This document shows positions 2,395 through 32,938 of a stretch of DNA of 64,000 nucleotides, one piece after another. The translations under genes were made by a program, and so were the position numbers. The stretch is taken from positions 1,426,001 to 1,490,000 of the forward strand of contig NZ_BBRI01000002.1 of assembly GCF_002090075.1 (NCBI RefSeq). Reading direction: 5' to 3'. A model generated the notes under the pieces. It searched no databases. It had not been told where the DNA came from and saw nothing but the letters and a program-made list of their open reading frames with translations. Each line of letters opens with the position of its first letter. The stretch's first letter is position 1. The DNA comes from Demequina sp. NBRC 110052 (GTDB lineage: Bacteria > Actinomycetota > Actinomycetes > Actinomycetales > Demequinaceae).

Positions 2395-2652
2395 GTGCCC
2401 GAGTCCAAGAAGCGGACCAAGAAGAACAAGCCGCAGGTCTACAAGGCCCCCCGCAACCTCGGCAAGCCCGAGTCGGAGAACCCCAAGTGGCTCGTCCCCA
2501 CCATCGTCGCGCTGCTCGTCATCGGCCTCGGCTGGATCGTCGTGCACTACATCACGGCCGGCCAGTACCCGCTGCCGATCTACAACTGGAACGTGGGCGT
2601 CGGCTTCGTGTTCATGGCCGCGGCGATGGGCCTGCTGACGCGCTGGAAGTAG
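2395..2652 (+). CDS. crgA: Cell division protein CrgA
   Basis: An 85-residue membrane protein that helps coordinate septum formation with peptidoglycan synthesis, contacting FtsZ, FtsQ and penicillin-binding proteins in mycobacteria. A basic Lys-rich N-terminus (residues 1-30) is followed by NPKWLVPTIVALLVIGLGW and a second hydrophobic hairpin ending in GLLTRWK, the family's two-helix layout. The GTG start at 2395 has CAGGAG just upstream. Its position beside sortase/trpG and ppiA, at the gyrA side of the origin, matches actinobacterial synteny. Confidence 0.92.
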   Translation: MPESKKRTKKNKPQVYKAPRNLGKPESENPKWLVPTIVALLVIGLGWIVVHYITAGQYPLPIYNWNVGVGFVFMAAAMGLLTRWK

Positions 2653-2690
2653 TCCGCGCGCCGCAGACGCCGCGCCTCACCTCAGACGTC

Positions 2691-2724
2691 GAGCGCACCA
2701 GGGCAAGCCCGCCCTGGTGCGCTC
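2691..2724 (+). terminator. Intrinsic terminator after crgA
   Basis: Perfect 14-bp stem (2691-2704 with 2711-2724, arm GAGCGCACCAGGGC) and a 6-nt loop, 38 bp after the crgA stop. There is only a weak T-run (CGTTGT), as is usual in high-GC actinobacteria. Confidence 0.8.
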
Positions 2725-2828
2725 CGTTGTATCCGGGCGGGGTTCGCGCCGCGCTTCTCGATCTCCCGCGTCACGCTCCACAGGCACGCCCGACGCTGTG
2801 CACAAGTCGGCGCCCCCGCCCGCGATCC

Positions 2829-2906
2829 TGTGGATAACTGTGGGGATATGTGAATGACACTGCTGTAGTTATCCCCACCCATCTCCACAGTGGGGGATAA
2901 CTACAG
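2829..2906. promoter_or_regulatory. DnaA-box cluster with perfect inverted repeat
   Basis: The convergent gap between crgA and the rhomboid gene holds an exact DnaA box (TTATCCACA on the minus strand, 2829-2837) and near matches TTATCCCCA (2869-2877), ATCTCCACA (2881-2889) and TTATCCCCC (minus, 2892-2900). The last part is also a perfect 14-bp inverted repeat, CTGTAGTTATCCCC (2863-2876) against 2893-2906, with a 16-nt spacer. It may titrate DnaA, bind another regulator, or simply terminate the rhomboid transcript. Confidence 0.55.
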
Positions 2907-2929
2907 GGCTGTAACTAGCCCGAGTCGCG

Positions 2930-3709
2930 TCAGCGCCGCAGACCCTTGCGGTCCACCCAATGCAGCATCGCGAGCATGCACAGCGCGCCGCCGACGGCAC
3001 CGCCGAGGTGGGCCTCCCACGAGATGCCGGGGATCACGAAACCCAACACGAGCCACAGACCCGCGGTGGTGAGCACCGAGCGGTAGTCGAGCTTGAGCTT
3101 CCAGAGCACGACCGCGTACGCGGCGAAGAGGCCGAAGATCGCGCCGGAAGCGCCGCCGTGCACGCCTCCATTGGCGAGCAGCACCACGCTCAGCGAACCC
3201 CCGACGAGGGACACCGCGTACAGCGCGAGGAATCTGAGGCGCCCGAGGATCGGTTCGAGCTGCGTGCCGAACTGCCACAGCACGAGCATGTTCATGCCGA
3301 TATGCCACACGCTGAAGTGCAGGAAGCCTGAGGAGATCCAGCGGTACCACTCGGTGCCGACGCCGCCAAGCGCATCGCCAATCGCCGGCCAGAGTCCCCA
3401 GTCAATGATCCACACCTCGCGGCCGATCACGAGATAGCCCGCAGCGAAGGCGAGCACGTTGAGCGCGATGATCGCGTACGTGATGACTGGGGTGCCGAAG
3501 GCGGAGGTGAAGCCGAGGCGGTTCACGACGGGGCGCACCTGCTGGCGAGCCTCACGCTCGCAGTCGACGCACAGCACGCCGACGGGTGCCGGCACCTGGC
3601 ACTGGGGGCACGTGGGCCGGCCGCAGCGCTGGCAGGTGACGTAGGAGACGCGGTCCGGGTGGCGCGGGCAGACGGGCTCGACTGCGGCCGCGCCCCCCGA
3701 AGCGGTCAT
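2930..3709 (-). CDS. Rhomboid family intramembrane serine protease
   Basis: A 259-residue protein that should cleave membrane proteins within the bilayer. Residues 14-50 form a Cys-rich, zinc-ribbon-like module (CPRHPD, CQRCG, CPQC, CVDC) common in actinobacterial rhomboids. Six or so membrane segments follow. The catalytic Ser188 lies in GGASGAIFG, His234 in WEAHLGG, and oxyanion-hole residues His136/Asn140 in HIGMN. It follows ppiA directly (3-bp gap), so the two probably share a transcript. Substrates are unknown. Confidence 0.9.
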   Translation of the reverse strand: MTASGGAAAVEPVCPRHPDRVSYVTCQRCGRPTCPQCQVPAPVGVLCVDCEREARQQVRPVVNRLGFTSAFGTPVITYAIIALNVLAFAAGYLVIGREVWIIDWGLWPAIGDALGGVGTEWYRWISSGFLHFSVWHIGMNMLVLWQFGTQLEPILGRLRFLALYAVSLVGGSLSVVLLANGGVHGGASGAIFGLFAAYAVVLWKLKLDYRSVLTTAGLWLVLGFVIPGISWEAHLGGAVGGALCMLAMLHWVDRKGLRR

Positions 3710-31058: not shown

Positions 31059-31516
31059 CGGGTTCTCTCCTTGGCTTCTGGGGGAAAGACTACGCCAGAT
31101 GGGACGCGCGTCCAGGGGGTGGTGAGAGCGCGTCCGATGCGCGGGGCGCGGCGCGTCATGAAGGTCGGATGGGGATGGATAACAAGAAAGTACGGGAAGT
31201 AGTCATAGGGGCGGTGGAATCTGGGGAGAACCTGCGATCGCCCAGGTACGGATGCGAATCATGATGTGCATGAAACGTGGATCACGCTGCGGATGGGTCG
31301 CAGGAGGTGGTGGAAGGCGTCACGCGAATCACAGGTTCCTGTCATTTCTCCACACTTCGTCCCTGGTGGATGACTGTGTCGTTCACAAGTACTCACAGGG
31401 TTTTCCACATCTGTGCAAGGCGTACCTGACTGTGGTATTGCGACAAGTGTGGGAAAGCGGCGGGACCGCCATGGAACTCCGCAACAGCGTCGGGCGCAGC
31501 CGGGAAGCGGCGTGGC
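31059..31516. other. Probable chromosomal origin oriC
   Basis: The 458-bp gap between dnaA and dnaN, the usual actinobacterial origin position, contains no gene but several DnaA-box-like 9-mers: GTTATCCATC (minus, 31174-31183), TGATCCACG (minus, near 31276), TTCTCCACA (31346-31354), TCATCCACC (minus, near 31366), TTTTCCACA (31401-31409) and TTTCCCACA (minus, near 31449). All are degenerate, as in other high-GC origins. Confidence 0.8.
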
Positions 31517-32938
31517 TCAGCTGCGCGACTGCTGCTTGATGCGCGCGTGGATCTCGTTGACCTGGTTGTACATCTGACGACGCTGCGCGATCTGGTCCTC
31601 GACCTTCTTGACCGCATACATGACCGTGGTGTGGTCCTTGCCGCCGAAGCTCTCACCGATCTTCGGAAGTGAGAGGTCCGTGAGCTGGCGGCACAGGTAC
31701 ATGGCGATCTGACGCGCCGTCACGAAGACTCGCGATCGTGAGGTGCCCGTGAGCTCCTCGATCGAGATCCCGAAGTAGTCGGCGGTCATGCCGATGATCG
31801 CTCCCGCGCTGATCTCCGAGTCGTCGTCGCTGATGAGATCCTTCAGCACCACCTGCGCCAAGGTCAGATCGACGGGCTGCTTGTTCAGTGCCGCGAACGC
31901 GGTGACTCGGATCAGCGCACCCTCGAGCTCGCGGATGTTGCTCGTGATGTTCGAGGCGATGTACTCGAGCACGTCTCCGGGAGCCGCCACGTCGTCCGCC
32001 TGCGCCTTCTTGCGAAGGATCGCGATGCGGGTCTCGAGGTCCGGCGGCTGCACATCGGTCATGAGACCCCACTCGAAGCGGGTGCGCATGCGCTCCTCGA
32101 TGCCGTCGAGGTTGCGAGGGCTGACATCCGAGGTGATGACCACGTGCTTCCCGGCGTTGTGCAGCGCGTTGAACGTGTGGAAGAACTCCTCGAGCGTCTG
32201 CTCCTTGCCCTGCAGGAACTGGATGTCATCGATGAGGAGGACATCGACCTCGCGATACGTGCGTTTGAACGTCAGGGAGCGGTCGTCGCGGATGGAGTTG
32301 ATGAAGTCGTTGGTGAACTCCTCCGAGTTCACATACCTGACCCGGGTCTGCGGCTTGATCTGCCTCGTGTAGTGGCCGATCGCGTGGAGCAGGTGCGTCT
32401 TGCCCAAGCCGGAGTCGCCGTAGATGAAGAGGGGGTTGTACGTCTTGCCCGGGCTCTCGGCCACGGCGAGCGCCGCGGCATGAGCGAAGCGATTGGACGA
32501 ACCGATGACGAACGTGTCGAACGTGTACCGCGGGTTCAGGTGCGGGTCCGGCACCGGCTCGGCCTCCCGGGCGAGAGACTCGCGCCGAAGTCTCTGATCC
32601 ACAGGAGGTGGTGGCGTCTGGTCGCCGCCCTCAGGAACGGGAGTCTCACTCGGAGTCAGTGAGCTGTCCACCGTGACGGCGATGCGGATGTCGCGCCCGA
32701 TCACCTCGGACAGCGCCTCGGTGATCGGACCGCGTAAGGTCGTCTCCACGTAGTTCTTCGTGAAGTCCTCGGCGACGGCGAGGAACACGTTTCCCTCGAC
32801 CACGACGAGGGGAGTGACGAGCCTCAGGAACGAGCGGTGCTGCGTGGAGATCGAGTCGTCGGCCGCCAGCAGCGTCAGCGCGCTCTTCCACACCTCTTCG
32901 ATGCTGGGTGTGGCGGCCTCATCGGTCACCCGAACCAC
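31517..32938 (-). CDS. dnaA: Chromosomal replication initiator DnaA
   Basis: A 473-residue AAA+ initiator. Domain I (1-90) begins [12 protein letters not shown]; domain III has Walker [18 protein letters not shown] (about 175) and Walker [16 protein letters not shown]; domain IV ends with the DNA-binding signature [11 protein letters not shown]. Domain II is short and Pro-rich. The start is the GTG at 32938; a second in-frame GTG lies three codons in. It is co-directional with dnaN across oriC and divergent from rpmH. Confidence 0.98.

Follow-up and report, generated by a model that had tools for sequence, protein, structure and literature searches.

A predicted composite site for DnaA and an McdR/ResR-type regulator downstream of crgA in Demequina and across Actinomycetes

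The 64-kb window analysed here (a stretch of 64,000 nucleotides of Demequina sp. NBRC 110052) contains, directly downstream of the cell-division protein gene crgA, a cluster of DnaA boxes interlocked with two facing palindromes. We consider it probable that this crgA-side element is an origin-proximal control site, rather than a promoter, at which DnaA and the MerR-family cell-cycle regulator McdR (ResR, Rv1830 type) would bind interlocked sequences. Elements of related composition were found beside crgA across the order Actinomycetales and in the class Actinomycetes outside it.

The element lies between crgA (2395..2652, + strand; Pfam CrgA, E 2e-22) and a convergent rhomboid-family protease gene (2930..3709, – strand; Pfam Rhomboid, E 2.6e-30). 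Its leftmost component is an exact DnaA box TTATCCACA (2829..2837, – strand, motif scan), followed by the palindrome P1, AATGACACTGCTGTAGTT (2853..2870), which agrees with the published McdR operator motif AATnACAnnnnTGTnATT at 11 of 12 specified positions. A DnaA-like box with one mismatch, TTATCCCCA (2869..2877, + strand, motif scan), has two bases in common with P1. Two further DnaA-like boxes with two mismatches each were read from the sequence, a central one, ATCTCCACA (2881..2889, + strand), and TTATCCCCC (2892..2900, – strand), the latter having two bases in common with the second palindrome, P2, AACTACAGGGCTGTAACT (2899..2916; 10 of 12 positions), which starts 46 bp past the start of P1. 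Both P1, with one mismatch, and P2, with two, have the spacer of exactly 4 nt that the motif specifies. The exact box and three near matches within 72 bp between convergent genes, described in the initial annotation, were all present in the sequence, and the perfect 14-bp inverted repeat described with them was confirmed by inverted-repeat scan (2863..2876 and 2893..2906, 16 nt between the arms). The arms had been read there as two DnaA boxes; the boxes are indeed in the arms, but the repeat 2863..2906 is made up of the two DnaA-like boxes and the inward-facing halves of both palindromes, and each arm, judged by its motif match, fuses a DnaA box with one half of an McdR/ResR-type operator. The sequence TGTAGTTATCCCC has exactly two copies in the genome, both in this element, and one further place at one mismatch.

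DnaA boxes are unusually dense at this position. Within the window, eight matches to TTATCCACA with at most one mismatch were found (1.84 expected; 0 of 100 shuffles reached eight). The 2.6-Mb genome contains 86 such near-consensus boxes, and only two pairs of neighbours are spaced by less than 500 bp: the crgA-side one, at 40 bp the closest of all, and one next to dnaA, at 55 bp. The third-closest pair is 537 bp apart. The crgA-side cluster is a genome-wide outlier in DnaA-box density. Exact TTATCCACA occurs twice genome-wide; the other copy (L367, C2:1130295) precedes a possible open frame. The dnaA gene (31517..32938, – strand; TIGR00362, E 1.4e-159) is adjoined by DnaA boxes at 31346..31354 and 31401..31409 (motif scan), which probably mark oriC (31346..31409). 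The crgA-side element is about 28.4 kb from these boxes, in agreement with the 28 kb initially estimated, and it is not beside dnaA, the placement expected of oriC.

The element is conserved throughout the genus. Among 37 Demequina members, 36 had a rhomboid match (G018 had none), and these 36 loci, the window's own included, form the genus set. The crgA–rhomboid gene order was kept in the first 30 loci, in all of which crgA was recovered by tblastn, and in six further congeners. The aligned gap reads palindrome, TTaTCCCC (the third base varies), ~14 nt, GGGGAtAA, palindrome, and the ~14-nt middle often holds TCCACA or TGTGGA. When the pair per locus was chosen by best score at 42–51 bp spacing, two palindromes, each matching 10 or 11 of 12 positions and facing each other across the boxes, were found in 36/36 loci, with their starts spaced by 46 bp (26 loci), 47 bp (9 loci) or 49 bp (1 locus). 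When 84,980 species genomes were searched for the arms in facing orientation, GTAGTTATCCCC...GGGGATAACTAC, without mismatches, 23 stretches were returned (records of the own genome or near ones may be omitted), 20 of them from Demequina and one from an actinobacterial metagenome genome. The remaining two were contigs of gammaproteobacterial symbionts (L039, 4352-4387; L040, 2134-2169).

The operator of McdR (Rv1830, also named ResR) was defined as AATnACAnnnnTGTnATT by DNA immunoprecipitation sequencing (DIP-seq), electrophoretic mobility shift assay (EMSA) and mutation on M. smegmatis and M. tuberculosis promoters (PMC9040748). Three promoter targets are named in M. smegmatis, whiB2 and MSMEG_0833 among them, the latter paired with Rv0430 in a text that has misprints (PMC9040748). 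The Demequina genome has operators of this type at a whiB gene and at a DUF3263 gene (11/12). MSMEG_0833/Rv0430 is a DUF3263 gene, and these two operators match two of the three named targets. The same genome encodes, in a row, an FHA-like frame (identified by eye), ftsR and an McdR-like MerR gene (MerR_1, E 8.4e-15), an order that presumably ties the McdR-like gene to Rv1830. We use the names WhiB and McdR here on the basis of Pfam, gene order and operator match, and for McdR not of direct comparison with Rv1830; a comparison with NCBIfam assigned no McdR or WhiB family name, and a solved-structure search with the McdR-like protein returned only two other MerR-type regulators.

The first palindrome model was made by eye from Demequina-type sequences and was replaced by the published motif for the final counts. 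The early pattern matched the whiB and DUF3263 promoters in the own genome and in relatives and also, by eye, the gap upstream of dnaA in two other families. McdR-type palindromes with DnaA boxes were seen upstream of dnaA in other families at L353 ~1535 (tblastn), L215 ~2063 and L225 ~2006 (both by eye). Three other proteins were considered as the palindrome binder and rejected. DUF3263 first looked autoregulated; in family f4, the palindrome was present in 2 of the 4 genomes examined and a DUF3263 match in 0 of 10, and the McdR literature then named a binder. The motif bound by FtsR, the MerR regulator encoded next to the McdR-like gene, is of another kind, a 25-bp repeat (PMC6683498), and that of MtrA consists of direct repeats (PMC6265350).

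Reach beyond the genus was measured by scanning 1 kb downstream of crgA with the published motif at a threshold of at least 10/12, in 90 of 148 crgA-bearing genomes of the order (11 of genus Demequina left out) and in 85 of 104 crgA-bearing genomes of the class outside it. The operator was found in 53/90 and 60/85 genomes, respectively, representing 13/17 and 24/32 families. Dinucleotide shuffles reached the threshold in ~0.4% of cases, and five control motifs (halves swapped or reversed; spacers of 3, 5 or 6) gave 0–1 matches per set. The distance from the crgA stop was at most 300 bp for all 60 matches outside the order and in 44 order genomes. In family f37 (for example L289, L295, L303 and L304), which is among those without the operator at crgA, a variant palindrome of the GTTGACGCCGGTGTGACT type follows CTGTGGATAAC in 6/7 genomes and could represent this site with an altered specificity. 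In one small genome of family f44 (L361, ~1517), the composite lies by the rhomboid gene and crgA is elsewhere.

DnaA boxes accompany these crgA-side operators. A box with at most one mismatch lies within 70 bp of the palindrome at 49/53 sites in the order, 53/60 in the class outside it and 27/36 in Demequina, compared with 0.7–1.7% of shuffled flanks. Near the other operators, no DnaA box was detected (whiB, 0/14; DUF3263, 0/21, these 21 having been found among 30 loci); the 14 whiB operators were themselves found via the palindrome and therefore test boxes only. The DnaA boxes belong to the crgA-side site, not to McdR operators generally. Their register is constrained: outside the order, box starts fall at –2/–1 (20 boxes), +12 (21) and +21/+22 (37) relative to the palindrome end, and the commonest box within the order is mirrored with a 2-nt overlap (19), so that palindrome and first box often share two bases.

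A strict pattern (box half, 0–4 nt, palindrome) matched 28 times across 27 of the 118 genomes from the class, in which the reversed pattern never matched; 15/28 lie within 300 bp of crgA. The 13 matches away from crgA (L353-L365) include eight with NrdR by tblastn, one in an rpmH-dnaA gap, one beside a rhomboid gene and one amid unrelated-looking genes; L355 and L356 have flanks in common with L354, of the same genus. At L354, L357-L359 and L362-L365, the box half and McdR palindrome adjoin a ACTAGATGTAGTGG-like repeat at nrdR/ribonucleotide-reductase genes. This repeat resembles an NrdR box, and DnaA and McdR may meet at these sites too.

The M. tuberculosis gene Rv0011c is crgA. The gap between Rv0010c and Rv0011c (155 sites) is among five regions bound in vitro by M. 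tuberculosis DnaA, as found by in vitro DNA affinity purification sequencing (IDAP-seq) and EMSA, and chromatin immunoprecipitation sequencing of M. smegmatis DnaA identified homologues of those five regions (PMC7738170). All but one of the convergent clinical changes in the gap fall within a small palindrome that lies upstream of Rv0010c at a distance of 65 bp and was interpreted there as a pair of DnaA-box-like sequences; three constructed gap variants gave longer cells, as dnaA variants did (PMC7738170). The Demequina element shares both the placement of this site, directly downstream of crgA and near oriC, and its anatomy, in which clustered DnaA-box-like sequences accompany a palindrome. 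Four genomes in our set have a mycobacterium-like order (crgA, a bPH_6 protein, CwsA; Pfam on one genome each). Their gaps measure 155–156 bp, and their palindromes match the McdR motif at 12/12 positions in three genomes and 11 in one; the palindrome ends at a distance of 66 bp from the start codon that follows. The AATCACAnnnnTGTGATT palindrome also fits the pattern ATCAC(N)4-7GTGAT, through which the M. tuberculosis gap was reached in a study that called the DnaA site and the HigA2 site the same (PMC11205783). Because gap size, spacing and pattern agree with the mycobacterium-like genomes, we infer that the M. tuberculosis gap palindrome would be a ResR/McdR operator.

The DnaA-box cluster away from oriC proposed in the initial annotation is supported by its outlying density, its conservation and the DnaA binding reported for the mycobacterial gap; a datA- or DARS-like role is one possibility for it. 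Such a site beside crgA is not wholly new, since this mycobacterial counterpart has been published. The Rv0010c-Rv0011c site was described as having no obvious correspondence in other species (PMC7738170), whereas here it is found class-wide, and its palindrome is now recognized as a putative McdR/ResR-type operator that is doubled and inverted in Demequina. What appears new is McdR as the predicted second binder, together with conservation across the class, a fixed register and, in Demequina, a doubled and inverted arrangement. In the open literature, none of the papers listed by our searches links the Rv0010c gap with ResR or McdR, a link that subscription papers, among them the one that named ResR, may contain; one paper has Rv0010c and Rv1830 in the same list of candidates, each under its own entry.

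We weighed five other explanations. The element might be a DnaA-only titration site, or one of the datA or DnaA-reactivating sequence (DARS) type, in which the palindrome merely pairs two DnaA boxes, as in the published reading of the mycobacterial gap (PMC7738170). That gap is bound by DnaA, and among palindrome-less genomes at least two DnaA boxes lie within 600 bp of crgA in 18/25 outside the order, though in only 4/37 within it. However, both the sequence of the palindrome and the length of its spacer fit the McdR operator, the neighbouring spacers giving next to no matches, and the identical palindrome type occurs at the whiB and DUF3263 promoters without any DnaA box. A DnaA-only site is therefore unlikely in our view.

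The McdR-type operators of the whiB and DUF3263 genes are sites within promoters, which might instead suggest regulation of a local transcript, an unannotated RNA or the next gene. The next gene is co-directional with crgA in mycobacterium-like genomes, and Rv0010c expression is altered in a higA2 mutant (PMC11205783). In contrast to the whiB and DUF3263 operators, the crgA-side operator is flanked by convergent genes and is rich in DnaA-like boxes; by an open-reading-frame heuristic, the next large frame is convergent to crgA in 47/53 order genomes and 49/58 others, the mycobacterium-like genomes differing. No sigma-70-like promoter was found in 2600-3000, in a scan for that one promoter type, and expression of Rv0010c and Rv0011c was unchanged in dnaA mutants (PMC7738170). 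We regard a local regulatory role as improbable.

The palindrome could be the target of a different regulator, for example an antitoxin of the HigA2 type, and HigA2 does bind the M. tuberculosis gap palindrome in EMSA (PMC11205783), which shows that a single palindrome can be used in vitro by different proteins. The HigA2 consensus, ATCAC(N)6GTGAT (PMC11205783), is nevertheless a misfit to Demequina P1 (AATGACA...TGTAGTT) and P2 (AACTACA...TGTAACT), both of which fit the McdR motif, and the operators at whiB and DUF3263 genes agree with named McdR targets. Another regulator in place of McdR is accordingly very unlikely.

A perfect inverted repeat between convergent genes could also be an intrinsic terminator or a structured RNA. 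The initial annotation had held that a stem kept while its TTATCC sequence changed would indicate a terminator; the opposite was seen, with the sequence kept and the pairing not. Across the 36 Demequina loci, 450 of 468 pair cells were unchanged, one was G-U, 17 were broken and none was compensated, and a broken pair was present in 15/36 loci. Because stem pairings break without compensation, selection acts on the sequence, not on a hairpin. A scan of 2600-3000 found no consensus T-run terminator, the loop would be 16 nt long, and another strong hairpin, a perfect 14-bp stem with a 6-nt loop just past crgA (2691..2724, inverted-repeat scan), is probably the crgA terminator, without a T run and separate from the DnaA/McdR element. 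We consider a terminator or structured RNA highly improbable. A mobile or repetitive element of the repetitive extragenic palindromic or miniature inverted-repeat transposable type, as an inverted repeat in a gap might suggest, is scarcely credible for a sequence with one exact genomic place and a constant position in congeners.

Several observations weigh against a joint DnaA–McdR site itself. Most arm boxes in Demequina are TTATCCCC(A), off the consensus, and box and palindrome edges lie no more than 3 nt apart at only 25/53 sites in the order and 21/60 outside it. The palindrome was absent at crgA in 37/90 order genomes and 25/85 others, although a strong McdR-like match, at E 2.4e-41 or better, is present in 110 of the 118 genomes from the class. 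Conversely, six genomes (G197, G226, G239, G248, G254, G266) have the palindrome without a strong McdR-like match, five of which are at most 80% complete and one of which, G226, is 96% complete. The HigA2 binding in M. tuberculosis counts on the same side, as does the fact that the text of PMC9040748 names three promoter targets from five DIP-seq peaks, the crgA gap being unnamed there. Binding of both DnaA and McdR in Demequina is a prediction, and the direction of the effect could be titration and release, reactivation or inactivation.

In the mechanism that we propose for a joint site, the DnaA-box cluster would hold DnaA near oriC, and McdR bound across the box edge would displace DnaA or re-order the complex. 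Competition would be the simplest step, since operator and box have bases in common. DnaA so released or re-ordered would increase the DnaA acting at oriC, while McdR would repress whiB2 and hence division. McdR overproduction in M. smegmatis raises the copy number of origin-near DNA (PMC9040748); a site that retains DnaA and, on McdR binding, releases or activates it would be consistent with this effect and with the dnaA-like phenotype of the gap variants. With McdR as partner, the site could alternatively serve DARS-like exchange or datA-like inactivation.

Like datA, DARS1 and DARS2 of E. coli, in which a density of DnaA boxes near the origin has also been described (PMC12371093), the crgA-side element is a non-coding DnaA-box cluster outside oriC. 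The datA and DARS2 clusters are joined to sites for IHF or Fis, and the crgA-side cluster is joined to the predicted site of a second protein, which would in this case be a MerR regulator; the likeness is one of layout, not of shown sequence relation. It differs from other McdR operators, with which it shares the motif (PMC9040748), in its DnaA boxes and its place between convergent genes. A Streptomyces DnaA-box cluster ~78 kb from oriC, reported to affect initiation, is likewise actinobacterial and outside oriC, at a different distance and place and with no known McdR link.

In actinobacteria, where little is known of how initiation is timed, no datA or DARS counterpart is known to be established. 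The crgA-side site, which recurs in many families, is a concrete and conserved candidate for such a role and may couple the onset of DNA replication with cell division. It provides a possible mechanism for the rise in origin-near copy number on McdR overproduction and suggests an identity for the palindrome in the M. tuberculosis DnaA-binding gap. A wider proposal, to which we attach even odds, is that of an ancestral class-wide checkpoint, in which McdR/ResR would gate DnaA beside crgA, and in some lineages also at dnaA and ribonucleotide-reductase promoters, turning initiation up and, via whiB2, division down; the M. tuberculosis palindrome under convergent selection would then be a ResR operator. 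In that case, a single circuit would comprise dnaA, resR and the Rv0010c-Rv0011c gap.
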